From a virus, in IMG/VR virus record IMGVR_UViG_3300038954_000191, positions 1 through 22,264 of that record: 22,264 bases of DNA; one strand, given 5' to 3'. Under the pieces are notes generated by a model, which saw nothing but the letters and a program-made list of their open reading frames with translations, searched no databases and was not told where the DNA came from. Made by a program: the position numbers and the translations under genes. Shown here piece after piece: positions 1-20,832 of this stretch; within the stretch, counting starts at the first letter, position 1; each line of letters begins with the position of its first letter.

Positions 1-169
1 TTCAAAGTGGCCCGTCCTGTACGAAGGTGAAGACGGAGGCGTATTCGACTGTACAACGTACACCGGATTTGCGTCCCACGCCTTAGGCTACGAGGACGAT
101 CCCGGCAGTGCTATTCTCGATGAGATTGATACCGACATCGTCCGAGTATACCACAAGGGAGCACCATGA
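1..169 (+). CDS. C-terminal end of an unrecognised gene (5' truncated)
   Basis: An open frame enters from the left edge and reads 55 codons from base 2 to a TGA at 167-169. The visible residues are rich in Asp, Glu, Tyr and Gly and end in VYHKGAP. They contain no motif I can assign. The stop overlaps the ATG of the following exonuclease gene as ATGA, the usual sign of translational coupling, so both probably belong to a plus-strand operon of replication or nucleotide-metabolism genes beginning outside the window. That role is inferred only from the neighbour. The start codon and most of the protein may be missing. Confidence 0.6.
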   Translation, partial: SKWPVLYEGEDGGVFDCTTYTGFASHALGYEDDPGSAILDEIDTDIVRVYHKGAP

Positions 170-768
170 GCATCGCAAGTCTAATTACGTTGAACGACAA
201 TGTCTTAGCTGCGATGGACGTGGAAACCACGGGTCGCGATCCGTGTCGGCACGAAGTTATCCAACTTGCCATCGTGCTGTTGGATTGTAACCTCAACCCC
301 GTCGACAGCTTCTACACGAATATCTGCCCGGAGTACCCGGACAGGATTCACCCGGAAGCGGTCGCGACACACGGCATCACGTACGAGGATTTGCAGTCGT
401 CACCTGACAAGTACACGGTGGCAGACAACCTATGGGAGTGGTTCCAGAGTCTTGAACTGGCTCCTGGCAAACGCCTCGTTCCCTTGTGCCACAACTCGCA
501 GTTCGACATTCCGTTCGTCCAGTCGATGTTGGGTCTCGAAATGTTCTATGAGATTTTCGGGTACCCGACCCGCGACACCCAAGCCCTGATTGTGGGGATG
601 ATGGACCGAGCGGCATACCACAACGTTAAGTGTCCGTTCCCGTACGCCCGGCTCGGCGAATGCTGTAAGGTGCTGGGGATCGAACTGGATGACGCACACG
701 ACGCCCTGGCGGACGCAGTTGCTACTGCTCGGGTGTATCGGGCTTTGCTTGAGAAGTCTCAGTGGTAG
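166..768 (+). CDS. DEDDh 3'-5' exonuclease (DnaQ/RNase T family)
   Basis: This 200-residue protein has all the signature motifs of a DEDDh exonuclease. Exo I is DVETTG with D18 and E20, Exo II is HNSQFD with D114, and Exo III is HDALAD with H178 and D183. The family uses two metal ions to remove nucleotides from DNA or RNA 3' ends, as in the epsilon proofreading subunit, RNase T and oligoribonuclease. The protein is only the nuclease domain, without a polymerase or clamp-binding extension that I can see, so it could proofread in trans, process recombination ends or trim RNA. The start at 166 follows AAGGGAG, a good ribosome binding site, and overlaps the upstream stop as ATGA. It is one of only two plus-strand genes here and converges on the late operon. 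Family assignment is firm; the substrate is unknown. Confidence 0.93.
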   Translation: MSIASLITLNDNVLAAMDVETTGRDPCRHEVIQLAIVLLDCNLNPVDSFYTNICPEYPDRIHPEAVATHGITYEDLQSSPDKYTVADNLWEWFQSLELAPGKRLVPLCHNSQFDIPFVQSMLGLEMFYEIFGYPTRDTQALIVGMMDRAAYHNVKCPFPYARLGECCKVLGIELDDAHDALADAVATARVYRALLEKSQW

Positions 769-880
769 ACTTCTGACCGAGTGATGTCTTCTTAAAATTC
801 TTCAAGTCTCCGACGAAGGTTCCCACCTTCGGAACGGAGACTTTCTTATTTCCGCACTTGCGGCATCTTGCTTTAGCCAT
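722..880 (-). CDS. Possible small CxxC (half zinc-ribbon) protein, 52 aa
   Basis: A frame of 52 codons begins MAKARCRKCGNKK and ends in a Thr/Ser/Lys-rich tail. It has one CxxC pair at residues 6-9 and many basic residues, a common look for very small phage zinc-binding proteins. Its ATG overlaps the stop of the upstream SPFH-like gene as ATGGCTAA, which favours reinitiation. I see no Shine-Dalgarno sequence of its own. Against it, the frame runs through the terminator hairpin at 805-851 and its last 47 bases are antisense to the end of the exonuclease gene. It may be a real last gene of the late operon or a chance open frame. No function can be assigned. Confidence 0.4.
   Translation of the reverse strand: MAKARCRKCGNKKVSVPKVGTFVGDLKNFKKTSLGQKSTTETSQAKPDTPEQ
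805..851 (+). terminator. Rho-independent terminator between convergent modules
   Basis: The 8-bp outer arms AGTCTCCG (805-812) and CGGAGACT (835-842) enclose a second perfect 6-bp helix, GAAGGT (815-820) with ACCTTC (825-830), around a TCCC loop. The plus strand continues with TTCTTATTT, so the hairpin should end transcription of the exonuclease operon 36 bases after its stop. On the minus strand the same hairpin is followed by a weaker mixed T run, so it may also stop the late operon. It lies inside a possible small minus-strand gene (722-880), which complicates that second role. Confidence 0.75.
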
Positions 881-1388
881 CGTTGATTAAACGAAACGCG
901 GGACTTGAACACAACTCTGTGAATTTGCACTTCTTGACCTGGACGCCGATGACACGTAATTCCTCCTGCATGGCGAGCGAGAGGGCGACGTTCAGAGCAT
1001 TCGATTGCTTGAGCATATCATACGTGCATGGAGACAGAACGTCCACGAGCACGCTCTGTGCAGCCTCTCCCACGGTGTCTTCGTAATCCTCTTCCTCCGT
1101 GACACACTTCAACGCGTCGCTCGGTTTCCACCGAGTGAGTGTGCGGGCGGACACGGACACGCCGTCAGCGAGAGTCACGGTCTGTACGTGGGTAACGAGC
1201 GACTTCCATCGAATGTCAATCACCTCTACCTCAGTGACGAGAGGCCAGTACCAAACGATCCCAGGCCCGTGAAGCGTACCCTTCCGGCACTTCTGCCACT
1301 TCACTATACGGTGAGTCGGCGGTACCTTGTGAAATTGTGGGCACCATGCCGTGAGTTTACGGAAGAACATCGAGAGCCACTCAAGCAT
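873..1388 (-). CDS. Small SPFH/band-7-like protein
   Basis: This 171-residue protein reads like a compact stomatin/prohibitin-type SPFH domain. After an amphipathic, aromatic N-terminus (about residues 1-20) comes a PGIVWYWPL turn (42-50) with the following VEVIDIRW strand. Next is TLADGVSVSARTLTRWKPSDA (about 72-92), matching the usual T.DG.v....v.y.v.d.. core. A helix AAQSVLVDVL (109-118) and a final EELRVIGVQVKKCKFTEL segment (142-159) match the last helix-strand unit. The long C-terminal coiled coil of cellular family members is missing. SPFH proteins form membrane-attached rings, and HflK/C bind FtsH. Here the role is unknown; a virion, membrane or protease-modulating role would be speculation. 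The ATG overlaps the upstream stop by 8 bases (ATGCTTGA). The family match is by eye. Confidence 0.65.
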   Translation of the reverse strand: MLEWLSMFFRKLTAWCPQFHKVPPTHRIVKWQKCRKGTLHGPGIVWYWPLVTEVEVIDIRWKSLVTHVQTVTLADGVSVSARTLTRWKPSDALKCVTEEEDYEDTVGEAAQSVLVDVLSPCTYDMLKQSNALNVALSLAMQEELRVIGVQVKKCKFTELCSSPAFRLINDG

Positions 1389-1971
1389 CTGTCTTTACCT
1401 TTGCTGGGAATCGGCCCAGCGGGCAAGCCTCCGTCGCCATCCGTAGCTTATTCCGGAGGGCAGGTTGGTGCTTGTTAGCCGGGCAACCACACGAATTACA
1501 CACCTGACGTTCCTTGTCGAACATAGAGCACCCGCTACAATGTTCATCGTAGATTGCTTTGATCTCTTCGTCCGTGCGTTCTGGCCGCCCTGCCGCGACC
1601 CACTTCCTGACTGCGGCTTGATAGTTCATCACCTTGTCTACCAGTCTCGCAGTCTCCATCTTGGAATCCTTTGCACACCGTGTGCAAATATCTTTGTCGG
1701 TCTTCAACCCCGTCACACCACACATCGGGGTGTTGTCCTTTGGACTCTTGAACCGAAACTCACACGGCGGGTAGTCCGACGTGTCGACAACAGGAAGCTC
1801 CATCTTTGTCGGTGCCTGCTTCTGTTTCTTATCCAGCAGAACACGAACGGGGCATGAGTCACACGCCGACGCGTCGACAGGCTGGCGGTAGTGCTCCGCC
1901 TGCTTGTTGATACATCGATGAATCACTTCGCCTTTACGTCGCTCCACTTGACGTTTCCGGCATTCTCTCAT
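1381..1971 (-). CDS. Cysteine-rich phage protein with CxxC and CxxCGCP motifs
   Basis: This 196-residue protein carries 14 cysteines, at residues 4, 20, 37, 40, 70, 84, 96, 99, 145, 148, 158, 161, 163 and 183. The C-terminal part (145-187) has CSGCSMF, CNSCGCP and CPLGRF. That order is familiar from small cysteine-rich proteins encoded near phage tail-tip genes, some of which are suspected to hold zinc or an iron-sulfur cluster. The N-terminal half adds CDSCP and CTRC pairs, so two or three metal sites are possible. It has no signal peptide or membrane segment. It starts 11 bases after the hub gene, with AAGG about nine bases upstream, and its stop overlaps the next gene's ATG. It could be a tail assembly factor or a minor tip component. 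Biochemical function is unknown. Confidence 0.75.
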   Translation of the reverse strand: MRECRKRQVERRKGEVIHRCINKQAEHYRQPVDASACDSCPVRVLLDKKQKQAPTKMELPVVDTSDYPPCEFRFKSPKDNTPMCGVTGLKTDKDICTRCAKDSKMETARLVDKVMNYQAAVRKWVAAGRPERTDEEIKAIYDEHCSGCSMFDKERQVCNSCGCPANKHQPALRNKLRMATEACPLGRFPAKVKTDA

Positions 1972-1982
1972 TATTTGCTACC

Positions 1983-4913
1983 TTATACTTGTGCGTCGAT
2001 GTTCGGGCAATTGCTGCCCTTGACTGGCAATAGTGTTGCTGAAACGGGAGCCGTCGTCCCCGCTCGGAATGAACAGTGTGCCATTCTTGCCTGTGCTTCA
2101 ATTGCCCCCTTAAAGGCACGTGCCATGATCTCGGAGCCGAAGGTTTTACAGATGAAGTAGTTCGGCCCACCACACGACTTTCCACGTTCCGTAGTGTTAC
2201 ACGGACCCGGTTTGAGCGGGCAGTTGAGACCGCTACCAGGAGCGGTACTCGGTGCAATATACACGGCGGTGTGGTATTGCACGTTGACAGTCCACACGCA
2301 CGTCTCCAAGGTAGGACGACCACACGCCGTAGACTCTTCCGGTTCCTCGAAGTTGTATGACCGGCCATTCGAGGCGACTTCGTCTGCCCGAGTCGCCTGC
2401 TCCCCGGTGTCGACCGGGAAACTGCTGGTTCGTTCGAATTGCGGGGCAATCACGTCGACCAACTCCGAATCGTTCATATCTTGGCAGAAGGATTCGGGGA
2501 ACGTGTCATCCAGGTCACTTGGGATTCGGTCCCCTGTCGTCGCGACAACAGGCGGCTCGCCGCTAGCGGACTCAACATACAACGGATGTCCCTCAGGCGG
2601 CGTGACGTTCAGCAGTGGGCTTTCGATCTCGTACGCGTCTCCCGGATACGGTTCCTGTGCTTTGTTGGCAGGCCACGCGAAGAAGTATTCCTCGGTCGAA
2701 CCCGACAGAATAGGCGTCCAACATTCGACATCAACAATACCGTTGGTCGGGTTAATCGACACCGAAGTCACCAAGCACTTGACGTTCGGAAACTGTGCGA
2801 TGTTCAAGTTGATACAGTCGTACAACTCTAAGCCCATGTGCTCAAGCGTCGTCTGAAACTTGACGGTACGCCACGTGTTACTGTCGCGGATCGACCAGAA
2901 GGTCGCCGTCTTTAGGGCTTGAGCTTCGTTACTGATCGATTCGTAGGTGTGTGACTCACCAAAGAATCCGTACCTCCGGACATTACGTTCGACGGTCAGC
3001 CGCCTCTCCACGCTTCGAGCGTTGAGGATGTCCGCCCCACGGGGTTGCCACGTCACGTCACTACTTGTCACCAACTCTTCGGTCCGAGTGTGTGAGAAGC
3101 TGAACGAGCCCGCCACCAAATCCGCCTCAGTCATTGTCACGTCGACGCTTGGCTCGGCGGGTAGATACTTGATCTTAACCACGCCGTCCGTGATGACCAA
3201 CGCACACCGTGCCTCGTACGCCAAGCGGCTAACGGTTTGTAAGACGTTCTCTTTCTTGGCGTGATAGTAGTTGCAGGGGTAGTTCGCCAACGCCGATTTG
3301 GCCGACGCAAACGAAGCCGAGTCGACAGTGAAATCGGTAAAGTTCTCGATGATCCACTCGATCACGTCGGCAGGGTTGGGACCGATGTCAGAATCAAAGT
3401 GGACGTACAGCGTGTTATCCCAATTCTCATCCTGGTACGAATCCAAGCCACGGGTCAGGTGAATCTCAATCGCGGTCAGGTCACCGTAGTCGGTTTCAAC
3501 AACTTCGTAATAGTTGGTGGGAAGTTCAGTGAGTTGCCGATTGTCGCCGAACTGGCGGTACGCGTAGACACCAGTAACGGAGCCGGGGACCAAAGAGACC
3601 ACGTGGACGCGTGTCGAATCTTCCTCAAGATACACGTCCGAGCCGGACGGCAACCACTTGAACTTTGACTCTGCCATATCTCCGAGGGCACGCCACGCGT
3701 CGCCCGGGCCACCTACTACACGCAGCTCGATGTTTTCCGTTGCTTCGGAACATTCAGCGAGCGAGCCGGGTGTAGGCTCATTCTGTTGTCGATAGCCTTC
3801 GGTAAGTGGGCCTACCTTCGTACAGTCGACGTTCTCGGTTGGGGCGTCGAGTCGGTTGGTTTGATTGATAGTGAACGTCTCACCACTGAACGTGCCAGTG
3901 TAGATCACGTCGTCAATACGAATCTGAGTCAAACGCCCTTGCGGGAATTTGTTCCCGCCCAGGATGTTCAACGTATCGTTGACGTACGCTAGTTGATTAG
4001 CCCGGTCACGCAGTAGTTGGCAGAGCGTCTGGAATTTACCTCGCTCGCATTCCTTATCCTCCACAAGCTGTTTTCGATTGGGGCCGAGTTCAAGAACCCC
4101 GGCAACATTCTTAATCTGAGGAAGCCTCAATCCAAAGTTCCTGTCGTCGCCCGGACCACCATCGACTTGACCAAACTCATCCATGCTGTTCTCCCACTCC
4201 TGTCGGGCGTATGTAGCATTATCGAATGATTCGGTGTCCACGTCTTCTGGGACAGGTTCGCCGAGTTGGCTCTCAATCTTCGGACATTGAATCTGTTTCG
4301 CTTGGCAAATCTTGGCGTCGAGGGTCGTGTCTAAGACACCTTGCCCGATCCGCAGAATACCTTGGACGCCGTTGCGAATCTCAACGGCAGGGTATGCACA
4401 CGTTTCGCCGAATCGGAAGGGCCACGCCTTAGCACGGTCGCTCTCGTTGACTTCGGCAAACAGCCCGTCCTCCATCGCGAATCCAAACTGACGACCCTCG
4501 ATCTTATTCAGAATCGTGAACTTGAAGGTTCGGGCACGGTCGTCCCACTTCATTTCGGAATTGATCTCACCGTCAATTAAGACGACCGCCTCAGCGATCG
4601 GCACGCCGGGGAAGCTCAGGTACACCTTGGCGGGACGCTTGTGAACGTCGATGGTGTTGAGAATCTCCTTGATTGCACCGTCAGTGTCGGAAAGCGTAAC
4701 GGTGACAGATTGGGACGCACCGGTCCCGTCGACGAGTTGAGTAGTCTCAACGCCGCTGATACTGATGATCTGTTTCTTTGCCCCGGAGAATTCATGGGAA
4801 CTGTAGTAGTATTCGTCCCCGCTATCGTCCCACTGCACACCAATGAAGAGGGTCGGATCAACTCCGAACTTCTTAGACAGTGCTCCGTTTACTCCGCTGC
4901 TGAAAGTTCTCAT
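1983..4913 (-). CDS. Tail hub / tail-tip protein, 976 aa
   Basis: This is the large protein after the two Dit-like genes, the position of the tail-tip hub (gp27/J/Tal-like) in siphoviruses. The N-terminal third (about 1-170) is beta-rich, with repeated strands such as QSVTVTLSDTDG and RTFKFTIL, as in hub ring domains. The middle (about 480-720) has a second set, including DVIEWIIENFTDFTVD and VSRLAYEARCALVITDG. That pattern is frequent in hub proteins, where a domain closes the tube and contacts the tape measure. From about residue 855 the protein turns Cys-, Gly- and Pro-rich with eight cysteines, not typical of hubs. No lysozyme or peptidase motif was recognised. Its ATG directly follows the preceding stop (TAAATG). 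The hub assignment rests on position, size and strand patterns, not on a clear catalytic or fold signature. Confidence 0.7.
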   Translation of the reverse strand: MRTFSSGVNGALSKKFGVDPTLFIGVQWDDSGDEYYYSSHEFSGAKKQIISISGVETTQLVDGTGASQSVTVTLSDTDGAIKEILNTIDVHKRPAKVYLSFPGVPIAEAVVLIDGEINSEMKWDDRARTFKFTILNKIEGRQFGFAMEDGLFAEVNESDRAKAWPFRFGETCAYPAVEIRNGVQGILRIGQGVLDTTLDAKICQAKQIQCPKIESQLGEPVPEDVDTESFDNATYARQEWENSMDEFGQVDGGPGDDRNFGLRLPQIKNVAGVLELGPNRKQLVEDKECERGKFQTLCQLLRDRANQLAYVNDTLNILGGNKFPQGRLTQIRIDDVIYTGTFSGETFTINQTNRLDAPTENVDCTKVGPLTEGYRQQNEPTPGSLAECSEATENIELRVVGGPGDAWRALGDMAESKFKWLPSGSDVYLEEDSTRVHVVSLVPGSVTGVYAYRQFGDNRQLTELPTNYYEVVETDYGDLTAIEIHLTRGLDSYQDENWDNTLYVHFDSDIGPNPADVIEWIIENFTDFTVDSASFASAKSALANYPCNYYHAKKENVLQTVSRLAYEARCALVITDGVVKIKYLPAEPSVDVTMTEADLVAGSFSFSHTRTEELVTSSDVTWQPRGADILNARSVERRLTVERNVRRYGFFGESHTYESISNEAQALKTATFWSIRDSNTWRTVKFQTTLEHMGLELYDCINLNIAQFPNVKCLVTSVSINPTNGIVDVECWTPILSGSTEEYFFAWPANKAQEPYPGDAYEIESPLLNVTPPEGHPLYVESASGEPPVVATTGDRIPSDLDDTFPESFCQDMNDSELVDVIAPQFERTSSFPVDTGEQATRADEVASNGRSYNFEEPEESTACGRPTLETCVWTVNVQYHTAVYIAPSTAPGSGLNCPLKPGPCNTTERGKSCGGPNYFICKTFGSEIMARAFKGAIEAQARMAHCSFRAGTTAPVSATLLPVKGSNCPNIDAQV

Positions 4914-5307: not shown

Positions 5308-6576
5308 TTAATCGATCACGTATGAGACTTGCTGACTTACGATGTCGGCTTCCGTCAAATCGGTCGGGTCGCCGTCAACGTCGTATGCACGACCTACGAG
5401 GCCGTCCACAACCGAACTGTGTGTTACACTACGGTTGTAGGTGCTACCGGCTCGGCTCACAGTCTGGGCCAAGTCCAGGTAGTTGAAGAACCACTCGCCT
5501 TCTAAGGCTTCGCCTTCCACATCGAAGCTCAAGGTCCAGTAGCCTTCTGAATCCTCCGTGTATAGCTCGCCCGGGTTGACAACTACGACAACCCAAGTTA
5601 CGCCCTTCCAATCCTTTAGGATGATTTCCCGCCCGAGGTTATCTTGCAGGAACGTGTAAAGCGATTCCAGATCGGATCGCTTGTTAGCGACAACAGTATA
5701 AATCTGCGACTGCTCGGTCACCCAATTGTCATCTGAGAAAATGTCAGGCGACCCGTCGAAGAAGTTTCGGTTGACACGGTTGAACGCGTACCTCTGTCGA
5801 TCGTCCATTTCCGGGTTGCGAAGTTGGACAACCGTACCGCCGTCGACCGATTGCAAGTAGAACGTGTTGCTGTAGCTCAGCTTACGGATCGATGGTGCTA
5901 CTCCACCCGCTCCGTGGAACCGATTGTAGCTGTAGCGGTTGCAAGACGATTCGATGAAGTACGTGAAAGCCTGCTCAACTGCGTTCGAGTGTGAGAGACC
6001 CTGGTTCAGAATCTTATTGAGGAAGACGGTTGAAGTCAGGTCAAGGTCTGATTCAACATTGTACCCAACACCTGCCGAGACGGTTTGAGTCAATCCCAGG
6101 TCGTTACTGGCAGTCCACGCACGGAACGCAATCGACGAGAGGTTCAGGTTGCTTGTGATATTCGGGGTGAATGTAATCACAGCTTCCTGCGTCAATCCGA
6201 GTTCGTTCTCGGGGCCGACGTTCTTAACCGCAAACCCAAACTCAGCAGTGCTCGTTAAGTTCAACGCTTGCGGAACGACCTTCGTGCCGAAGACTTCACG
6301 AGACGCGTTTTGCGTGAGCCCCAACTCATTCTCAACCGTCTCGTACCCGAACGCTTTCGCCTCTTGCGTCAGGTTCAACTCTTGCTCGATCGAGTCACTG
6401 TTACCCGCGAACTGCAACAATGAGACACCGTCGTTAATACCCAGGTCTTGGGTTACGTTACGGCGTACACCGTCTGTAGCCTCTTGAGTGAGACCCAGGT
6501 CTTGCTCGACCGTGTAATTGAAACCCGACGCAGTGACAAGCACTTGCACCGTGTACTGATATGCTCGGATAGTCAT
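5308..6576 (-). CDS. Tail-tip protein with LxLTQ repeats and Dit-like C-terminal domain
   Basis: This 422-residue protein has two parts. Residues about 27-198 hold ten copies of a short motif around LxLTQxA, spaced 14 to 22 residues. Clear copies start at 27, 67, 85, 105, 126, 144, 160 and 178, with weaker ones at 45 and 192. From 85 onward they alternate between LGLTQ and LNLTS/LDLTS forms, giving a double unit of about 36-41 residues and suggesting a regular beta stack. Residues about 225-400 form a separate domain with ESLYTFLQDNLGREIILKDW and a following VTWVVVVVNP strand, resembling the next gene's product. It may be a tail-tip ring subunit with an elongated outward arm that contacts the host. 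Its ATG overlaps the upstream stop as TAATG. Function is inferred from structure and position only. Confidence 0.65.
   Translation of the reverse strand: MTIRAYQYTVQVLVTASGFNYTVEQDLGLTQEATDGVRRNVTQDLGINDGVSLLQFAGNSDSIEQELNLTQEAKAFGYETVENELGLTQNASREVFGTKVVPQALNLTSTAEFGFAVKNVGPENELGLTQEAVITFTPNITSNLNLSSIAFRAWTASNDLGLTQTVSAGVGYNVESDLDLTSTVFLNKILNQGLSHSNAVEQAFTYFIESSCNRYSYNRFHGAGGVAPSIRKLSYSNTFYLQSVDGGTVVQLRNPEMDDRQRYAFNRVNRNFFDGSPDIFSDDNWVTEQSQIYTVVANKRSDLESLYTFLQDNLGREIILKDWKGVTWVVVVVNPGELYTEDSEGYWTLSFDVEGEALEGEWFFNYLDLAQTVSRAGSTYNRSVTHSSVVDGLVGRAYDVDGDPTDLTEADIVSQQVSYVID
5983..6498 (-). repeat. Protein-coded LxLTQ tandem repeats
   Basis: This stretch codes for ten degenerate copies of a roughly 20-residue unit centred on LxLTQxA. 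The copies are related at the protein level but have diverged in DNA, so this is an old repeat, not a recent slippage array. Alternation of two motif versions gives a higher-order unit of about 36-41 residues. Confidence 0.75.
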
Positions 6577-7724: not shown

Positions 7725-8225
7725 TTAGCCGCTGACGGTATACGTCACCTTGAGCACGTCGCCGGACACGACAGAAGCGTTGCTGCTGAATGCAGCCGTC
7801 GCCCACAAGGTACCGGTGGTGCCGGACTTCGTGCTATCGCTTGACACGAAGATACCCTTGATGGTCGCCGTGGCGTTCATCGTGAAGTCGACGGTCGTGC
7901 TGTTAGTCACGGCACGAGACGCGGCTGCGTCAGGGTTCCAGGCAACACGAGTGGACTCGTCGTAGCTGGTGTTTTCTGACCAACCAGAGTGAGACGACAT
8001 CGTGTCCGCGTTGTCGAATGCGGTAAACCCGCTGTTGTCGACTAGACCGACGTAGTGAGTCGTGTCCTGAGTACCACCGTTGAATCCGGCGTCCAACAGA
8101 TAGTGGATACCTTCATCGACGATGCCGTTGAACACTTCCTCTTCCCACTTGAGGTTACCATCCTTATCAAAGCATTGCACCTTGACAGGGTTCAGGAAGT
8201 CGATCTTTTCTTTTAAGCCTTTCAT
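7725..8225 (-). CDS. Phage structural protein of unknown role, 166 aa
   Basis: This protein begins with a short charged helix and then shows an order I recognise from many phage structural modules: EVFNGIVDEGIHYLLDAGFNGGTQ (about 31-54), HYVGLVDNSGF, then SYDESTRVAW, a run of Thr/Ser strands (TVDFTMNATATIKGIFVSS) and a final SGDVLKVTYTVSG. It is a small all-beta protein, perhaps a tail-tip or decoration subunit. Its ATG overlaps the tape-measure stop as ATGA and it precedes the lectin-like gene, so it belongs to the tail-tip set. No enzymatic motif is visible. The family is recurrent, but I know of no established function. Confidence 0.6.
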   Translation of the reverse strand: MKGLKEKIDFLNPVKVQCFDKDGNLKWEEEVFNGIVDEGIHYLLDAGFNGGTQDTTHYVGLVDNSGFTAFDNADTMSSHSGWSENTSYDESTRVAWNPDAAASRAVTNSTTVDFTMNATATIKGIFVSSDSTKSGTTGTLWATAAFSSNASVVSGDVLKVTYTVSG

Positions 8226-11200
8226 AGCCTTGTAGTTCCTCGTCGGAGTTCGCGTTTGATGGAAATGGCAATGTCACGACCAGTCTGGCCGGGCACATTG
8301 GATGATGAAGAGACGTTGATGTCTCCGATAGTGATGTTCGTGTCGCCCGTGTCGCGACCGGCACCGCTAGGTGCGTTACCAGCATTGATAGCTTGTAACT
8401 CTGGCAGGAAGTCCCGCGACGATTTCTGGTTGACCACAAACTCGTCGGGGGACAGCATCGCGGGGATTGTATCCTGACCCCGACCGCTACCTCCGTTGTT
8501 ACGGTACAGTGGACGACCACCGAAGTACAACCCATTTGAGCTGTTCTGGGCGTTCTGCTGTGCTGCTTCCTGTGCGGTTTGTAAAGCCTGCTGTGCGATG
8601 TCAAGCAACGCTTGATACGCTCCCTTGGCATTATTCGCCGCAGCTTGTAAACCGTTGGTAGCCGTCGTGACCGCGTTCAAGCCACGCCCCACCGATTGTG
8701 CAGCAGTCCCAATAGCAGCGACGTTTTCCTTCCCCGTAACAGCACGCAACTTGATTTCTGCCAGAGCCTTGTTGACGGTTTCGAACCCCTCTGAGTCTAC
8801 GTCAAGACCTAACTCCTGTACGTCCGACGTACTGATTTGCTCAACCAGTTGGCGTGCCGCTTCCAGGTTTGCTGGGTCGAATGCCTTTCGTGCCTCCACG
8901 CCTTCCAGCGTAGACTCCGCCGCAGCGATCGCATTGTTTACGGCCTCGGTCAGAAACTCTGCCTGTGCGTCACTGAACGGTGCGAAGATCGACCCGGCGT
9001 TCTCTGCAATAGCCGCAGGAGCCTGACGTAGATTTTCGATGAGAGTCCGCAGTTGTTCCTCGGTCAACTGATTGAGTTGACCTAACTGTTGCCTCAACGG
9101 CTCTGTCAGCGAGGAAGCATCGTCCCCGAACAACTTGGATTCTTTGAACGCTTGTGCGAGTGCCAACTGTGCGTCTGCGGCAGCGGCGTTCGCATTCGCG
9201 GTCGAAGTCTCAATAGTGCTCGCGAGGTTCTGCTGTTCCTTGTAAACGTCCAGAGCCGCGTTCGCAGTGTTCAACAACTGATCGCCCGGCAGTCCACCTT
9301 GTGCAACCGCGTCATTAACTGCATCGGCCACGACGCTGCTTCCAGTCCCTTCCGCCAAATCTTGGATGTTGGCGGTTAGAGTCACGGCGGCTTTCAAGTC
9401 CGTCGCGTTCGCAAGGTCTTCGCGAAGTTGGTCAATGGCGTTCGACCAATCAACATTAGTAGCCTCCAAACCTTCCGACACGTTGTCGATAGCCTCTTGG
9501 AACTGCTCCTTCAAGTCGAAGGTTTCAAGAACCTTAGACTCGCCAGCTTCGAGCAAAGCATCGCGGGCTTCGTTGGTTTCGTCGACCAACCGATCCTTCA
9601 ACGCGTTGATGTTTTCCTGCGGGGCACCTTCACTGACCGCAGAGGCGAGTTCCTTACGAACGTCGAGCACGTCTTGCAACTGACGTTGTGCCTCACCGCT
9701 CAACCGGTTGAAGATTTGCTCTTGCTCAAGCAACGCTTGATTGCCGACTTCTTCTCGCTGCCGATTCAACTCCCGCTCGACAGCGATCTGAGACGTGATG
9801 GCTTCCTGTACGCCAGCCTGGGCTTCCCTGATCTGTGCAGCGTTCCCGGCCCGCTTCGCAGCGGACAGTGCTGCCCTGGCTTCCTGCACGGCGATCTCTG
9901 CCGTGTTTCGAGCGATCTCTTGGGACTCTTCGGACAGACCGACATTGGCGGCACGGGCGAACGCCAGAGCAGTCTTTTCTGCGGATCGGGTCAACCGACG
10001 TGCAGCTTGTTCCGTTTCGTCGAGACCTTCCAGGCTGATCTCGAATGAGAATTCTTCCAGGTCTGCTCGGAAGCCACGGATTCGGTCACGTCCCGCGAGA
10101 ATCTCGTCGTCGATTTCTTTGATCGAGTCTCGAATCTGATCGAGCACGCGTTTCCGTGCGTCGCCGAATGCGTCGAGCAACGTGGTCTCAACTGCGGCGA
10201 TGTCGCCAGCTCGGACGTTGAACGCGTCTACGATCTCCCGACCGGTCTCCCTGGCTGACTCGCCTACTCGATTGATAATGTTGTCCGTGTTTCGCAGTGC
10301 GTCTTCGACTTCCTTGATTTTGTCTGCTTCAAGGTCTTCGACGGTTTCCGCAAACGCTTTCAGCCGATCGACTTCCAGCTTCGCAGTTTCTTCTGCCAAG
10401 TTGGATGCTGAGTCTGCCAACGCACGGAACAACTCAACCGCACCTTGTGCTGCTGCGGCAGTCGCCAGGAATGCCAGCACGGGCGGGAAGGCAACTGACG
10501 TAGCAACTCTGAATTTCGTTACGGCTACAGTTGCTCCGCCGATTCCTACCGCCAACGCAGAGATAGCAATGGCACCCTTCTCGCTACCTTGTGTAAGGAA
10601 CAAGAATGCGTTTACGACAGTATTCTGTAGTTGAAGTGCCCTATCGCCGAGACGTGTGAAGATAACTTCCAACTCTGCTGCGTTCCGTGCGGCTTCTCGT
10701 GCCGCCGTACTCTCGATACCAGCGATCGCGTCGCTCAACCTTTCAGCGGATCGTGCTGATCGGTCTGCGGTCTCCGCGTAGAGTTCACCGTTCTCGGTCA
10801 ACACGTTCAAGACACCAACGTTGGCACGGATCGTGTTGAATAGCCGAGCGAGCCCGTCTTCGTTTCCTTCGGTCGCCTTCTCCAACTCCTGTAGAGCCGC
10901 GACGAATCCGCCGCTCCGCTCGGACAGTTCTTGGAACCCTGCCACACCGAGTTCGTCATAAACAGCTTGCAGTGCCTTCGTCGGCTTAATCAACTTGTTG
11001 AAGACGTTACGCAACTGAGTGGTCGCGACGTTCGCCTTCGTACCGGTCAACGTAATCGTTGCCAGCGAGTCAGTGAGTTCCTTAAAGCTGACACCCAATT
11101 GAATTGCGAGTGGTGACAGCGTACCGAGTGAAGACTCAAGGTCGCCCAACGTGATACGACCGGCGTTAATTGTCCCGAAGAATTGCCCGGAGATACCGTT

Positions 11201-11851
11201 GACAGCTTCCGCGTTTTCGCCGAACGTTTTGTAGACCGACGACAACGCGTTGACCGCTTGAGTTAAATCACCGCCCGTGACGAGTGCTAGTTCTTGTGCT
11301 TCGGTGCGAAGAATCTCAAGGGTACCCTCCGTGTCGGACAGGTCGTTCTGCAACGCCTCGAAAGCGGCACCGCTAACTTCTTCGATCGGCCTACCTAACT
11401 CTGCGGCGAGTTGTTCGAGTTCGTCTCGAATCTTAGCGAAGCCCAATTGGTCTGCGTCGATCGCGGCAATACGCGATACTTGCAATTGGAATTCAGCGGC
11501 GGCGTCCGCAGCATCGAAGAACCCCTGCGTCACCGCACTGATCGCGGCGAAGATGATCTGCGATTCGATGATCCGGCCAACATCCCGGTAGGACAAGCCG
11601 ATAGCCTGGACAGACTTCGACGCCTTACGAGAGGCTCGGTCTACGTTATTCGCCGCCTTTGCACCAGACTTCCCAAACCGTTCGGCAGACTGTGCGATCT
11701 GCTCAAACCCCTGACCACCGATGTTCTTGTCGGCGACAGCCTGGAACGCCCCCATCGACTGAGCCGCGTTGTCCAACGCGGTGTCCAGTTTATTAAGGTT
11801 TGACACCGCACTAGCGGTGGTGATTTGGATTTCGCTTGAATAGACGGTCAT
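8222..11851 (-). CDS. Tape measure protein
   Basis: At 1209 residues this is the longest gene. It sits just after the chaperone region, as tape measures do. Residues about 90-350 match the TP901-type tape measure core, including AAEFQLQVSRIAA, GGDLTQAVNALSSVYKTFG and GRITLGDLESSLGTLSPLA. A hydrophobic stretch at about 425-475 could insert into the host membrane during DNA entry. Residues about 480-950 are Ala/Glu/Arg-rich helix, probably coiled coil. The C-terminus carries GRGQDTIPAMLSPDEFVVN, a short motif shared by many tape measures. By the usual rule of about 0.15 nm per residue, the tail would be near 180 nm long (inference). The ATG directly follows the upstream stop. No peptidase or muralytic domain was recognised. 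Confidence 0.93.
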   Translation of the reverse strand: MTVYSSEIQITTASAVSNLNKLDTALDNAAQSMGAFQAVADKNIGGQGFEQIAQSAERFGKSGAKAANNVDRASRKASKSVQAIGLSYRDVGRIIESQIIFAAISAVTQGFFDAADAAAEFQLQVSRIAAIDADQLGFAKIRDELEQLAAELGRPIEEVSGAAFEALQNDLSDTEGTLEILRTEAQELALVTGGDLTQAVNALSSVYKTFGENAEAVNGISGQFFGTINAGRITLGDLESSLGTLSPLAIQLGVSFKELTDSLATITLTGTKANVATTQLRNVFNKLIKPTKALQAVYDELGVAGFQELSERSGGFVAALQELEKATEGNEDGLARLFNTIRANVGVLNVLTENGELYAETADRSARSAERLSDAIAGIESTAAREAARNAAELEVIFTRLGDRALQLQNTVVNAFLFLTQGSEKGAIAISALAVGIGGATVAVTKFRVATSVAFPPVLAFLATAAAAQGAVELFRALADSASNLAEETAKLEVDRLKAFAETVEDLEADKIKEVEDALRNTDNIINRVGESARETGREIVDAFNVRAGDIAAVETTLLDAFGDARKRVLDQIRDSIKEIDDEILAGRDRIRGFRADLEEFSFEISLEGLDETEQAARRLTRSAEKTALAFARAANVGLSEESQEIARNTAEIAVQEARAALSAAKRAGNAAQIREAQAGVQEAITSQIAVERELNRQREEVGNQALLEQEQIFNRLSGEAQRQLQDVLDVRKELASAVSEGAPQENINALKDRLVDETNEARDALLEAGESKVLETFDLKEQFQEAIDNVSEGLEATNVDWSNAIDQLREDLANATDLKAAVTLTANIQDLAEGTGSSVVADAVNDAVAQGGLPGDQLLNTANAALDVYKEQQNLASTIETSTANANAAAADAQLALAQAFKESKLFGDDASSLTEPLRQQLGQLNQLTEEQLRTLIENLRQAPAAIAENAGSIFAPFSDAQAEFLTEAVNNAIAAAESTLEGVEARKAFDPANLEAARQLVEQISTSDVQELGLDVDSEGFETVNKALAEIKLRAVTGKENVAAIGTAAQSVGRGLNAVTTATNGLQAAANNAKGAYQALLDIAQQALQTAQEAAQQNAQNSSNGLYFGGRPLYRNNGGSGRGQDTIPAMLSPDEFVVNQKSSRDFLPELQAINAGNAPSGAGRDTGDTNITIGDINVSSSSNVPGQTGRDIAISIKRELRRGTTRL

Positions 11852-13042: not shown

Positions 13043-13786
13043 TTATGAGCAAGAGTCGTTGTCAGACCGCGTCACCGTCGCGTCGGTCGCGTTGCACTGA
13101 CCGGACACGCTGATCGCGGCATCGTTCACCGAGTAGTCCAGCGTTTCGTACCGGAAGTCGGGCAGGAGGATTTCCTGGTCTTCGTCGGTACCGCACGGAA
13201 CACAGTGAAGGATGATAACGTCAACAGCGTACGGTTCGCACAAGTCACTCGAACTGGACACCCACTCGCTGGCTTCGCCGGTTTGCTTGAGGGCGTCGAC
13301 AGGGGTGGGAGTCGCGTCAGTCGAAGCGGTCACGTACTCGAACGTGAACGCGATGTCGACGGACATTGGTTGATCCTGTCCCTGTCGAACAGTGTCCAGA
13401 ACGTCGCGGTCACGATCGTAAATGAATTCACGAGTTTCCGACCAACTGATTTCACCTTCGCCAACTTGGATTTCCAACCGTTGCGGTAGGAAGGTGATAG
13501 TCGAGTCGTCCGCTTCCGTAGCAGTTGCGGCGGGCGTGAACGTAATATCGGTCGTGGTGCCGGACGTAGGCGTACGAGCCGTCACCGTGTAGGTCGTGTC
13601 GGCGGTCGCAAACTGAAAGCGAGCACCGATCGGCACCTGATCGTCGACTGTGGTGTTCAAAGAAACGGTGTCGATGCTGACAGTGGTGTCGCTGACTGAA
13701 ACGCCACCGGCGTCATCGACCAGAGCCGTCCCGCTGAGACCGTCTTGGAGGTAGAGAGTCGTGTCTCGAAGTTGAATACGTGCCAT
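13043..13786 (-). CDS. Major tail tube protein, copy 2
   Basis: This 247-residue protein is the second of two tandem tail-tube-like paralogs. It shares an identical 19-residue start and a near-identical C-terminal 149 residues (99-247, three substitutions) with the preceding gene. Only residues about 20-98 differ clearly. The shared part has QVGEGEISWSETREFIYDRDR and DQPMSVDIAFTFEYV, in keeping with the beta-sandwich of long-tail tube proteins, though I infer the fold from position and pattern. A Cys-containing region (CEPY, HCVPCG, GQCNATD, SCS) lies near the end. The variable part contains PIGARF, YTVTARTPTS and DITFTP, reading as a beta domain on the tube surface. The start follows AAGGA eight bases upstream. 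The terminator at 13001-13025 follows. Confidence 0.8.
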   Translation of the reverse strand: MARIQLRDTTLYLQDGLSGTALVDDAGGVSVSDTTVSIDTVSLNTTVDDQVPIGARFQFATADTTYTVTARTPTSGTTTDITFTPAATATEADDSTITFLPQRLEIQVGEGEISWSETREFIYDRDRDVLDTVRQGQDQPMSVDIAFTFEYVTASTDATPTPVDALKQTGEASEWVSSSSDLCEPYAVDVIILHCVPCGTDEDQEILLPDFRYETLDYSVNDAAISVSGQCNATDATVTRSDNDSCS

Positions 13787-13821: not shown

Positions 13822-14580
13822 TTACGCACAGGAGTCGTTGTTAGACCGTGTCACCGTCGCGTCGGTTGCGTTACACTGACCACTGACGCTGATTGCGGCG
13901 TCGTTCACTGAGTAGTCCAGAGTTTCGTATCGGAAGTCAGGCAGGAGGATTTCCTGGTCTTCGTCGGTACCGCACGGAACACAGTGAAGGATGATAACGT
14001 CAACAGCGTACGGCTCACACAAGTCGCTTGAGCTGGACACCCATTCGCTGGCTTCGCCGGTTTGCTTGAGAGCGTCGACAGGAGTGGGAGTTGCGTCCGT
14101 GGTCGCGGTCACGTATTCGAACGTGAACGCAATGTCGACGGACATCGGCTGGTCCTGACCTTGTCGGACAGTGTCCAGAACGTCGCGGTCACGATCGTAA
14201 ATGAATTCACGAGTTTCCGACCAACTGATTTCGCCTTCACCAACTTGGATTTCCAACCGTTGCGGTAGGAAGGTCAAACCGTCATCGTCTGCCGGGACGT
14301 TGCCCGTGGCCAACGCCGGGGTAAATGTGATGTCGGTGGTTGGACTTGCACTCGTCGGGGTGCGAGCCGTCACGGTGTGGACAGTTCCATCGCCAGTGTC
14401 GATAGTAAACCTCGCCCCAATCGGCACCAGAGCGTCGTCGCTCGTGTTGAGGCTGACGGCGTCGATCGTCAGGGTGGTGTCAGTGGCGGCAGGAGCGGTC
14501 GACGGTTGGTCGACTGTGGCGGAGCCGCTTAACCCGTCTTGCAGGTAAAGGGTGGTGTCTCGAAGTTGAATACGAGCCAT
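13822..14580 (-). CDS. Major tail tube protein, copy 1
   Basis: This 252-residue protein is the first of the two tail tube paralogs and follows the tail terminator candidate. It has the same first 19 residues and the same last 149 as the next gene, apart from three substitutions. The middle (about 20-103) is five residues longer and diverged, but keeps the pattern PIGARF, HTVTARTPTS, DITFTP and a DDD(G)LTFLP end. Two tail tube genes can let a phage build a tail of mixed subunits or swap surface domains, as when a minority variant carries an extra domain. The start follows GAGGA eight bases upstream, the same spacing as copy 2, so the leader was duplicated too. Synonymous differences in the matching region rule out a trivial assembly duplicate. 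Confidence 0.8.
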   Translation of the reverse strand: MARIQLRDTTLYLQDGLSGSATVDQPSTAPAATDTTLTIDAVSLNTSDDALVPIGARFTIDTGDGTVHTVTARTPTSASPTTDITFTPALATGNVPADDDGLTFLPQRLEIQVGEGEISWSETREFIYDRDRDVLDTVRQGQDQPMSVDIAFTFEYVTATTDATPTPVDALKQTGEASEWVSSSSDLCEPYAVDVIILHCVPCGTDEDQEILLPDFRYETLDYSVNDAAISVSGQCNATDATVTRSNNDSCA

Positions 14581-15909: not shown

Positions 15910-17334
15910 TTAGCCGTTGACGACGACCGCCAGTCGTTCGTCGAGGACCGCGACGCCGCACAACAGGTCGAAGGTCACTCGCGTGCCTTGCGACTGAGAG
16001 TCGTACTGCATCGTGACTCGCATCGACAACCCGTCGAAGCTGGCAACTGCGGCACGAGCACCGTAGTTGTTCGCAGCGGCGGAGAGAGGACGGCTCACCA
16101 GGGCGATTGCATCGCGGGTGAACGCCAGCGATCGGCTACCAGCCGGTCCGGGGAAGCACAGGTCGTCGTCGGCCAACGCTGCGTCCAACGGACGATCCAG
16201 CAACAGGTCGTACTCGGTCGTGCTCGTCTCGGTGACGGCGATGACCGTGTACGCGTGTCGGTTGGCACCAGTTCCGAATGCGACCAACTGACCGACTTGC
16301 GGCCCCTTGTTCGCGGCGAATCCGTCGACGGTAACTTCCTTGCTGTAACCAGCGGCATAGGCACCGTTCACGTCACAGGCTTTGTAGACGTAAACGTCAG
16401 CACCCGACGCGATGTCGGCGGTCACACCTTCGGTGAGGGTGATGTCTGCGTCGCCACTGTCGTCAGCAGCCGAGGCAATCACGTGGATTTTCTCGCTGCC
16501 TTCGATGGTGATGTACTCACCACCAGCGGTCGTGACTTCGGTCGTAGTGACCGTGGTCTCGATGACGGTGTCGCCTTCGCTCTCGGTTCCGTCGGTGGCA
16601 CCAGCGGCACCATCGGCCAGTTCCGTGTCGGCGAGGTTGACGTGGGCGACGTTCTGGTCCATGAAGGAGTCGAAGCCGTAGATACGACCGACCGACGCTT
16701 CACGCAGAGCGGTACCTTCGTCACCACGCTTGTCGGCTTCCACGACGATTTCCGCACCCAACGCGGCACGATTGAATCGGCTCGACATCACCAATCGACG
16801 ACCGGCTTTCGGAGCCTTGTTGTCGTTCAGCTTTTCGTCGGCATCCAGAATGTAGTCGTCGACATTCAGGCTGGTGACGCTGTTGGGCTCACCAACTTGG
16901 TACGTCAACAGTTGTGCGGACTGACCGCACAGAACTTGGTCGACCTTCTCGGCGATTTCACGAGCCGCAGGTTCCATGTATCGTTCGAGCAAGTCGGGCA
17001 GTGCCTTCGACAGTTCGCCGTCTTTGATGACGAACGAGACGTGGATGTGCTGATCCAACGGCACGGGGATATTCGTGCTGATCGCGTCCTGATCGGTCAC
17101 GTTGTCGCTATCCGTCTTCCGCTTACCAGAGAAGTCAGCGGGACGGCTGGTGTTGACAACATCGCCTTCGTTGGCGACCATGTCGGAAAAGTCACGGTGG
17201 ACCAATTGGGCCATGACCGTGTTGGACATCAGGGTCATCAACGCTTCGCGAGACCAGATTTCCGGAATCAGAGCGTCGTTGTCGTTTGCCTTTGCGATGA
17301 GTCGGGTCGCGGCGGCGAGGATTGCTTTGAACAT
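15910..17334 (-). CDS. Major capsid protein, P22 coat-like with an inserted beta region
   Basis: At 474 residues it is longer than P22 gp5 (430). Residues about 20-240 follow the P22-type order, including FSDMVANEGDVVNTSRPADF, then AGRRLVMSSRFNRAALGAEIV (178-197) and LREASVGRIYGFDSFMDQNV (210-229). The end (about 400-474) has the matching RSLAFTRDAIALVSRPL and an LCGVAVLDERL strand. Between them, about residues 235-400 form a long beta-rich insertion, the place where P22 has its I-domain. It contains two repeats of one pattern, one about 283-318 and one about 360-395. The scaffold gene is immediately upstream and no protease is encoded next to it, as in P22. The hairpin at 15843-15866 follows it. 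Fold assignment by eye, but well supported by context. Confidence 0.87.
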   Translation of the reverse strand: MFKAILAAATRLIAKANDNDALIPEIWSREALMTLMSNTVMAQLVHRDFSDMVANEGDVVNTSRPADFSGKRKTDSDNVTDQDAISTNIPVPLDQHIHVSFVIKDGELSKALPDLLERYMEPAAREIAEKVDQVLCGQSAQLLTYQVGEPNSVTSLNVDDYILDADEKLNDNKAPKAGRRLVMSSRFNRAALGAEIVVEADKRGDEGTALREASVGRIYGFDSFMDQNVAHVNLADTELADGAAGATDGTESEGDTVIETTVTTTEVTTAGGEYITIEGSEKIHVIASAADDSGDADITLTEGVTADIASGADVYVYKACDVNGAYAAGYSKEVTVDGFAANKGPQVGQLVAFGTGANRHAYTVIAVTETSTTEYDLLLDRPLDAALADDDLCFPGPAGSRSLAFTRDAIALVSRPLSAAANNYGARAAVASFDGLSMRVTMQYDSQSQGTRVTFDLLCGVAVLDERLAVVVNG

Positions 17335-18379: not shown

Positions 18380-19069
18380 TTATCCTTTTTTCTGAGAGAA
18401 AGCACTTGACACAGCCAGAAACGGCCTAATCAACGCCCACGCGGAGGGACTCGGAATGAGGTTGGCCACGTGGTTTTTAGCCGACCGGCTGGTGTCGAAT
18501 TCCGTTCGAACCGGACCGAATGTCTCCACCTTGACGTTCAGAGCCTCAAAGTCGGCTTGTGGGTCGCGACCGCCCAGGAGAGCGTCGGCGATGAGGAAAG
18601 CGGCCTGCTCGATCGACGTGGGAATACCAGCGGAGCCGCCGATCAAACAGACCGTCCCGTCGTCCAGCGTCCTGGTACGAGGGAATTCGAGTGTCTGATC
18701 GTCGTCGGTCTTCGACCCTACGAAAGCAAACCGGTCGATCAGTTGTTGGGCATGATACAGAGCCTTGACCTTATCCTCCAAGCTGGCGTTGTTCCAGTCC
18801 CACGCGTGAATCCGCACCGCGTGGAACAAGTCCCCGGCGTCGACCGTTCCGTAGTATAGGTCTGAGAGGTCCACAGCGAGCGTGTCAGACGATGGATCGG
18901 GTGACCCGCCTGATTGGATGTAGACGTACGGAAAGTCCGTGTCGCCCGGGTACAGGCCGCTGTACGTGCCATCCTCGGTGATGGCGGACGTAGCGGTAGA
19001 GTCCGACCCTTCCAGGTCGCTGCCGTAGAGGGTCAGACCGGTCGTGTAAATCAGATGCTTCGTTGCCAT
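18380..19069 (-). CDS. Head-tail adaptor (DnaT-like/gp6-like) with extra N-terminal domain
   Basis: Residues about 80-200 resemble adaptor proteins of the DnaT-like/HK97 gp6 type. A helical start (WNNASLEDKVKALYHAQQLIDRF, about 92-114) is followed by LEFPRTRTLDDG, then IPTSIEQAAFLIADALL (149-165) and a short VETFGPVRTEF strand. These proteins form a ring under the portal and begin the head-tail neck. The first 70 residues (HLIYTTGLTLYG, DFPYVYIQSGG and DLSDLYYG) are beta-like and are not part of the ordinary adaptor, making the 229-residue product unusually long. The ATG overlaps the portal stop as TAATG, and the gene lies before the scaffold rather than after the coat. Assignment is moderate. 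Confidence 0.6.
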   Translation of the reverse strand: MATKHLIYTTGLTLYGSDLEGSDSTATSAITEDGTYSGLYPGDTDFPYVYIQSGGSPDPSSDTLAVDLSDLYYGTVDAGDLFHAVRIHAWDWNNASLEDKVKALYHAQQLIDRFAFVGSKTDDDQTLEFPRTRTLDDGTVCLIGGSAGIPTSIEQAAFLIADALLGGRDPQADFEALNVKVETFGPVRTEFDTSRSAKNHVANLIPSPSAWALIRPFLAVSSAFSQKKG

Positions 19070-20832
19070 TACTTGTTCTCGCTTCCGCTACCTGGGGTCG
19101 GGGGTTCTGGACGTTTTGTCTCATTCTTGTTCTGGGACTGATCCTTCTCCCGGGCGGCATCGCCACCGGCCTCCGGTACTCCACGAGCGGCGAAGTTGGC
19201 AGCCTGTCCGCTACCTCCGCCCGGTGTCTGTGCGATGATCGTCGCGGCCAGTCGTTCGGCCCGATCTTTCTTCGCCTGCTCGACCACCTTCTCTGCGTCG
19301 TAGCCGAGTGCTTCGGATGCGGTGATGTCGTCCACGAGACCGGCTTTGTGAGCTTGCATCGTGACCTGGGGGTCGGAGAGGATGTACGAGTTCGTTTCGA
19401 TCTTACGATGAATCTGGTCGATCTTATCCTGCGGTAGCTTACCGCCGACCAGGGTGTCGACGATCATCTTCGCAGTGACCCGTTTGAGTTCCTGCGTCGG
19501 CATACGCTCGACCAGCTTGAGTTGCTCGTCGGCTTCTTCCAGACGTTCCAGGTCACTTTTGAGCGTGTAACGCTCGGGGTAGTGTACGGTCGCCGGGGTT
19601 GGGTTGGTCACGTTCTCGTACTCTGCCCACAAGGTGGCGATCATCTTCTCGCCTGCTTCGAGGACTAGACCGATGAACGACAACCCGGCTTCCAGACCGC
19701 CTTGGCTGACTTTCTTGCTTTCGGCAGACTCCGTACGCGAGCCAGCCTTGTTGGCGACAGCCAAGTTAATCAAGTGTCGAATGTTGTCTTCCAGCTTCTC
19801 TTGCAACTTCATCGAAGCCTCAAGAGGATCGGTAGGCGGTGCGATAAAGCCGGGTCGGTCTTCGCCAATTCCGTAGTACCGACCTTTACCACCACCAACC
19901 TCTTCCGCGTGTCCCTCCGCACCTTCTGCGTCGGACGGTCGCTTCAAGTGATCGCCGGATGCGTAGTGGTCGCGTTGGATTGTGAGAAAGGGAGCGTTCG
20001 ATCGAAGTGCATAGTAGACATCGTTGCTTGAGAGGTTCAGCAGTGAACGCTGGTAGGATGCGACATCCTTCATTAAGGAGTCGCCGATGTCGAACAGAAC
20101 GAACGGCACGCGTTTCAGGTTCGTACGAACGCGTCCGTCTTCAAGTGAATCTTCTGCGATACGGAGTTCACCTTCCTTGTCGAACAGTTTGTACCAGACG
20201 ACACCGTTCTCATCTTTCCAGATGAGTCGGTAGCCGACTTCTGTTCCGTTCGGCAGGATAACACCGTGACCGACTTCACCATGAACTGTGATGTTCCAAT
20301 CACGAAGCAACACGCTCTGAAATTCACCCCCTTTACCGCGTGGTGCATAAGAGTACGATAGGATGTCTTCAATCCGGTAGTATGTGAGATACGGCGGGTA
20401 TGTCACGTCCGCCAACGTGTCACCGAGTGGCGGAGCCGCGTCGACGTAGACACCAACCTTGCCCATCAGCAATAGCTCGGTAAGAACATCCTTCCCGATG
20501 AAGGAGTCCATCGTCGAGCCTTCGCCATCTACGCCGCCTCCTTTACCTACAACTGCTTCCCTGTATTGCCGACTTCCGCCGACGCGGCTCACGCCCACTA
20601 ACCGCTGGTAAATGTTGTTCCGCACGTCGAGGATAGCCGACTTCGCGAACGTCGGAATTGGAGTCAATTCCTTCCGCTCGTTGAATTCGGCTTGCGTCTC
20701 TCGGTTGCTGAACTTTACCAAGTAGTGATCGCGATAGTATTCGCCACCTTCAAACGTATCCCGCCAAAACTCCCAATCCAGGGAGTCACGGACGTAGTGC
20801 GGGTGACGGATGTTGATGATTTCGTGAGCCAT
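19069..20832 (-). CDS. Portal protein
   Basis: This 587-residue protein is encoded right after the large terminase. It starts RHPHYVRDSLDWEFWRDTF and shows a portal layout. Early on are FAKSAILDVRNNIYQRLVG (about 62-80), then beta segments in the wing region, and a long helical C-terminal part rich in Glu, Lys and Arg (LEASMKLQEKLEDNIRHL and LKSDLERLEEADEQLKLVERM). The acidic, Lys-rich C-terminal tail (SQNKNETKRPEPP) is disordered. The order and starting motif recall DUF4055-type portals, although I cannot confirm the exact family. The portal forms the ring through which DNA is packaged. Its ATG directly follows the terminase stop (TAAATG). Confidence 0.82.
   Translation of the reverse strand: MAHEIINIRHPHYVRDSLDWEFWRDTFEGGEYYRDHYLVKFSNRETQAEFNERKELTPIPTFAKSAILDVRNNIYQRLVGVSRVGGSRQYREAVVGKGGGVDGEGSTMDSFIGKDVLTELLLMGKVGVYVDAAPPLGDTLADVTYPPYLTYYRIEDILSYSYAPRGKGGEFQSVLLRDWNITVHGEVGHGVILPNGTEVGYRLIWKDENGVVWYKLFDKEGELRIAEDSLEDGRVRTNLKRVPFVLFDIGDSLMKDVASYQRSLLNLSSNDVYYALRSNAPFLTIQRDHYASGDHLKRPSDAEGAEGHAEEVGGGKGRYYGIGEDRPGFIAPPTDPLEASMKLQEKLEDNIRHLINLAVANKAGSRTESAESKKVSQGGLEAGLSFIGLVLEAGEKMIATLWAEYENVTNPTPATVHYPERYTLKSDLERLEEADEQLKLVERMPTQELKRVTAKMIVDTLVGGKLPQDKIDQIHRKIETNSYILSDPQVTMQAHKAGLVDDITASEALGYDAEKVVEQAKKDRAERLAATIIAQTPGGGSGQAANFAARGVPEAGGDAAREKDQSQNKNETKRPEPPTPGSGSENK

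Follow-up and report, generated by a model that had tools for sequence, protein, structure and literature searches.

What could a tailed phage do with a protein that consists of little more than one SPFH domain? SPFH proteins are usually studied as large coiled-coil cages, and an open reading frame in a 22.3-kb IMG/VR record of a tailed phage (22 264 nucleotides, analysed over its full length and called the window below) raises this question. The frame occupies 873..1388 on the minus strand, with its ATG start at 1388 and its stop at 873, and encodes 171 amino acids; a check of the plus strand of 873-1388 gave no 171-aa product of this kind. An earlier note on this DNA had placed the product by eye in the SPFH/band-7 family. 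All of the motifs quoted there were found in the protein, and the assignment held: PF01145 (Band_7) matched with 59.6 bits (E 5.4e-16, profile positions 2-139 of 176) against a curated cut-off of 23.6 bits, well beyond the background similarity that the note had named as the alternative. The match covers residues 21-153 (930..1328, minus strand). A second Pfam run gave 58.9 bits at the identical position, and phmmer against the PDB retrieved the archaeal stomatin PH1511 (E 0.0017).

The structure of the window protein was predicted with AlphaFold2 using an alignment of 38 family sequences (mean pLDDT 92, pTM 0.78); the family alignment was required, the single sequence giving a pLDDT of 33. 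Strands and helices follow the order expected for SPFH. The last element of the model is the last SPFH β-strand (residues 149-161; 906..944, minus strand) and the chain stops 10 residues beyond it, which bears out the note's claim that a C-terminal coiled coil is absent. Its description of the protein as minimal is likewise apt, this being an SPFH domain without the later assembly parts. All family members end near the last SPFH strand, so that the coiled coil and C-terminal oligomerization region of a cage-forming protein are lacking throughout.

The model begins with a predicted amphipathic helix (residues 3-13; 1350..1382, minus strand); the sequence of the window protein shows neither a transmembrane segment nor a signal peptide. 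The segment before the conserved Pro has a mean hydrophobic moment of 0.49 over 45 sequences, compared with 0.204 ± 0.015 in shuffles of the same residues, and in the family this amphipathic segment is only 16-18 residues long. From the model, we propose that this helix, rather than a transmembrane segment, anchors the protein to the membrane. The GPGIVWYWP loop (residues 41-49; 1242..1268, minus strand; family motif PG-x-[HFV]-[WI]-[YW]-WP) is proposed to be a membrane-interface loop. Pro42, Gly43, Trp48 and Pro49 are invariant in it among 38 sequences, a conservation that is partly ascertainment because the motif served as a search pattern. Membrane binding and oligomerization of the phage protein are both predicted properties.

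Relatives were collected by iterated scans of IMG/VR, starting from the window protein aligned with the MW202733.1 protein. Seven loci were obtained first and then 44 contigs encoding minimal SPFH proteins; all 44 records passed the PF01145 cut-off. The members are 170-202 aa long (46 sequences) and share one layout, in which a short N-terminal helix that terminates at a Pro (Pro17, unchanged in 38 sequences) is followed by one SPFH domain and a short tail past the last strand. The scans selected for PGxxWYWP and LVTEVEV, so the conservation of both motifs is partly ascertainment; no such selection applied to length, to the N-terminal helix or to the absence of a coiled coil. Among GenBank phages one member was found, MW202733.1, annotated as a 'prohibitin-like protein', as a marginal tblastn match (E about 0.01); tblastn of GenBank phages at E 0.01 returned no member, and scans with single proteins returned the MW202733 phage alone or no match. 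Two scans of bacterial and archaeal genomes gave no member, using short peptide patterns that divergent members could escape. Of 50 random IMG/VR contigs, one has any SPFH domain (in a frame of 371 aa; the contig is 324 kb long). On this census, the minimal SPFH protein is a phage-only family common to many uncultivated phages. dN/dS was calculated from unsaturated pairs, more distant pairs being saturated, and was 0.06 (L012/L013), 0.12 (L012/L014), 0.11 (L014/L015) and 0.11 (L022/L023). The family is under strong purifying selection. Since the window protein is 72% identical to its counterpart in another phage and the family is conserved in 44 contigs with dN/dS of about 0.06-0.12, the frame at 873-1388 is, as judged from its sequence, a real gene and not a chance frame.

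The family profile was compared with cellular SPFH proteins. Mammalian stomatin scored best (E 1.3e-17), followed by QmcA (3e-12), HflK (1e-8), erlin, HflC (4e-6) and flotillin (1e-3). In a tree calculated with IQ-TREE, the phage proteins including MW202733 form one clade (UFBoot 96) beside the cellular slipins, and the T4-like lipoprotein of 44RR falls elsewhere; with six non-phage sequences and a short alignment behind it, the tree can serve as an indication at most. The annotated plasmid matches were slipins. The HflK equivalog TIGR01933 scored 11.6 bits with the window protein, against 159.4 required. These comparisons place the phage family nearer to stomatin/slipin (SPFH1) than to HflK/C, flotillin or prohibitin. 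With PH1511, QmcA/YbbK and mammalian stomatin it shares the SPFH domain, a sister position in the tree, the GPG...P loop, a putatively membrane-facing N-terminal segment and the absence of a signal peptide. Unlike them, it has no coiled coil, C-terminal region or NfeD partner, its helix is too short to span a membrane and its members have 170-202 aa, compared with about 254-304 aa in the slipins considered. NfeD as an operon partner was rejected, PF01957 being present in 0 of the 44 records.

A bare domain of this type might act on the host's own assemblies. It could enter host cages (slipin/QmcA, HflKC or flotillin) and open or cap them in a dominant-negative manner, shifting FtsH-type proteolysis or membrane domains in the phage's favour; this generalizes the idea in the earlier note that the protein might bind HflKC/FtsH. 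The note further suggested that it might shield phage proteins from degradation or ready the membrane for DNA entry. The entire family retains the SPFH domain without the assembly parts, slipins (QmcA/YbbK) and HflKC both bind FtsH (PMC2636767), and one record (that of L022) also has a full-length phrog_200-type SPFH protein as a possible partner. HflKC, however, is not the closest relative by the family profile: a decoy aimed at HflKC is not specifically favoured because the sequence is nearer to stomatin (1e-17) than to HflK (1e-8) or HflC (4e-6). A decoy would moreover be expected early, whereas the gene lies in a late operon, and it should track host proteins, whereas divergence within the family is large. 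We consider interference with host cages conceivable but rather unlikely.

Phage SPFH proteins as such are already known, from T4-like phages (PMC1524935), Kuttervirus (PMC10892097, PMC3220722), Kayvirus (PMC7150955), Burkholderia phage CSP3 (PMC10269572), an Antarctic prophage (PMC4936722), some Bruynoghevirus relatives (PMC8540360) and Gibbsiella phage GIB1 (PMC13239085); phages go unmentioned in a 2009 survey of SPFH proteins from prokaryotes. What appears to be new here is the phage-only single-domain form free of a coiled coil. In the papers searched, which were mostly outside the subscription journals, no such phage SPFH family was found described, nor was an association with proteases. 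The T4-like SPFH lipoproteins (PHROG 200; 44RR ORF098c, Kuttervirus gp200) are likewise phage-encoded, but have about 260-310 aa, an N-terminal hydrophobic segment, a long C-terminal part and a separate branch in the tree. PHROG 200 matched the window protein weakly but genuinely (E 4e-4), over positions 100-249 of 379 only, and its relatives with E 1e-9 to 2e-10; the window protein does not appear to be a member of that line. A true member, with 142.7 bits, is L137:10271-11167 in the record of L022, a 298-aa full-length SPFH protein whose N-terminal region includes a hydrophobic segment; its gene and that of the minimal protein are some 9 kb apart, and some phages thus have both kinds. The MW202733.1 protein, from an uncultivated podovirus of Manatee Spring, is a minimal SPFH protein within the phage clade (27% identity over 108 aa), although its gene adjoins the terminase, unlike that in the window. 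Its annotated start (UOF81165.1, L004:20007-20420) is probably too late, as the helix at the N-terminus and the first strands are encoded in frame upstream of it.

The position of the gene was examined next to its neighbours in the window, the terminase of which is at most 26% identical to those of cultivated phages. The terminase (20833-22264), a portal-like gene assigned from its position (19069-20832), a coat-like gene (15910-17334; the homologue in the nearest relative matches the P22 coat protein, PF11651), the tape measure (8222-11851), a 976-aa tail hub or tail-tip gene that matches phrog_31 (central tail fibre J) weakly (1983..4913), and the SPFH gene all share the minus strand, and the gene that follows is convergent, in keeping with the note's placement at the end of the late operon. 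This convergent gene encodes a DnaQ-like 3'-5' exonuclease (166..768, plus strand; PF00929, E 6e-20), with homologues in 17 loci. The 104-bp gap between the two gene ends (769..872) contains, at 827-839 of the plus strand, a weak site resembling a terminator. The 5' neighbour of the SPFH gene is a predicted Cys-rich gene of 196 aa (1381..1971, minus strand; phrog_13558), the end of which overlaps the SPFH start by 8 nt. It contains CxxC pairs and has homologues in seven loci; those of the window's clade lie between the hub and SPFH genes, and that of L014 is on the opposite strand adjoining the exonuclease. Elsewhere in the window, 13043-13786 and 13822-14580 are adjacent, closely similar genes that both begin MARIQLRDTTLYLQDGLSG and are probably tandem paralogues of a tail protein; both counterparts are kept in the nearest relative's contig. 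A 422-aa protein encoded between the hub and tape-measure genes (5308-6576) has a repeated ELGLTQxA-like motif in its first half.

Neighbours across the family were called with a simple longest-ORF script; Pfam and PHROGs named few others, and signal peptides, lipoboxes and serine-protease motifs were judged by eye. A tail-hub homologue lies 0-2 called ORFs upstream of the SPFH gene in 20 contigs, including the window. This proximity agrees with an accessory role in the virion or tail tip, in which a structural protein made late and located near the hub would touch the membrane during DNA entry, and in Kuttervirus Sajous1 the SPFH lipoprotein gp200 gave three spectra in CsCl-purified virions (PMC10892097). 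gp200, however, belongs to the other, lipoprotein line of SPFH proteins, and three spectra may be contamination, as the same list includes DNA-associated, lysis and assembly proteins (PMC10892097). The 20 hub-linked contigs also have their gene content in common and seem to represent a single phage lineage; in other lineages the gene is next to genes for lysozyme, portal or protease, which shows that the link to the hub is not obligatory. A structural role seems unlikely to us.

In those other lineages a phage lysozyme lies close downstream of the SPFH gene in L034, L043, L044 and L046. These neighbours are confined to one subclade plus L034, and the lysozyme PF00959 is present in five of 44 family records compared with two of 50 random contigs, with no clear enrichment; linkage to a lysis cassette as a general rule was rejected on these counts. 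In L027 the gene stands between a DUF4055 (portal-like) gene and a Mu-F-like gene, with an apparently exported trypsin-like protease 4 kb away, and in L028 and L040 it stands beside small membrane or lipoprotein genes. An apparently exported trypsin-like protease adjoins it in L026, L030/L036 and L033 and lies 1.7-1.9 kb from it in L032 and L050. Trypsin_2 (PF13365) was found in 14 of 44 family records (2.0 Mb) against two of 50 random viral contigs (3.1 Mb), both of the latter longer than 300 kb. The contrast (Fisher P 0.0006, or 0.001 without two duplicates) is post hoc and ignores shared ancestry and host type. Among non-redundant records the protease is within 2.1 kb in five of 12, where random placement predicts 1.2 (P 0.004); in half of the cases it is 12-48 kb from the SPFH gene. 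No trypsin-like protease was found in the frames of the window or in the 40.6-kb contig of its nearest relative (L048 = G038), and the window's clade is without one except for L029, where it is 21 kb distant.

Taken with the predicted structure, this context leads us to prefer, tentatively and at somewhat less than an even chance, a late accessory protein that is bound to the host inner membrane and acts there, altering it during the final phase of infection. The gene would be a late accessory gene rather than one for a core part of the virion, and the protein would be made late in infection. Having neither a signal peptide nor a transmembrane segment, it should be cytoplasmic and lie on the inner leaflet, as do SPFH1 proteins, the hydrophilic part of which faces the cytoplasm (PMC2636767); the amphipathic helix and the Trp-rich PGxxWYWP loop would seat it on this face of the membrane. 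The absence of a coiled coil and C-terminus would preclude a cage, and two options would remain, lateral packing of SPFH domains and entry into the cages of the host; we expect the former, with molecules packed side by side through SPFH-SPFH contacts and no cage closed. The likeliest use would be in helping or timing the envelope stage, meaning lysis and the export or regulation of enzymes secreted late. The late position and the envelope-stage neighbours favour the view that the protein acts as infection ends. By analogy, the Kayvirus protein MbpS may be a precedent: it is an SPFH protein encoded between the endolysin gene lysK and the gene of an exported lytic enzyme, tgl (PMC7150955). The likeness is by description alone, MbpS being a predicted membrane protein of at least 244 aa from a phage of a Gram-positive host (PMC7150955). 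Against the envelope role, the genes in the window and its nearest relatives adjoin the tail hub and not a lysis gene.

Cellular SPFH proteins partner membrane proteases (PMC2636767), and the protease neighbours would allow a more specific proposal, in which the cage-less phage stomatin and the exported trypsin-like proteases form a viral SPFH-membrane-protease partnership for late remodelling of the host envelope. The SPFH protein should be cytoplasmic and the proteases look exported, a mismatch in topology that weighs against the envelope role; the partnership we rate as very doubtful. If true, it would parallel in viruses the pairing of SPFH proteins with proteases and offer a clue to the way in which these phages deal with the host envelope. 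The variation of neighbours outside the hub lineage would also suit non-essential cargo, or a moron: the phage would have acquired a host slipin domain on one occasion and retained it for general membrane fitness or to exclude superinfecting phages, without any specific part in lysis or entry; the SPFH gene orf75 of another phage, CSP3, has been read in this way (PMC10269572). The strong purifying selection and the conserved position within the hub lineage argue against this explanation, which we judge improbable. A diverse phage family with the SPFH domain alone under selection provides natural minimal constructs for studying the action of the domain on membranes.

Two further observations were made at L134. 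A 131-aa RF-1 domain protein (L134:3377-3772; PF00472, E 1e-24) resembles a peptide-release or ribosome-rescue factor. A tandem of two apparently exported proteins (L134:6429-7822) precedes the terminase of the nearest relative and consists of a weak C39-like peptidase, below the cut-off, and a thioredoxin-fold protein.
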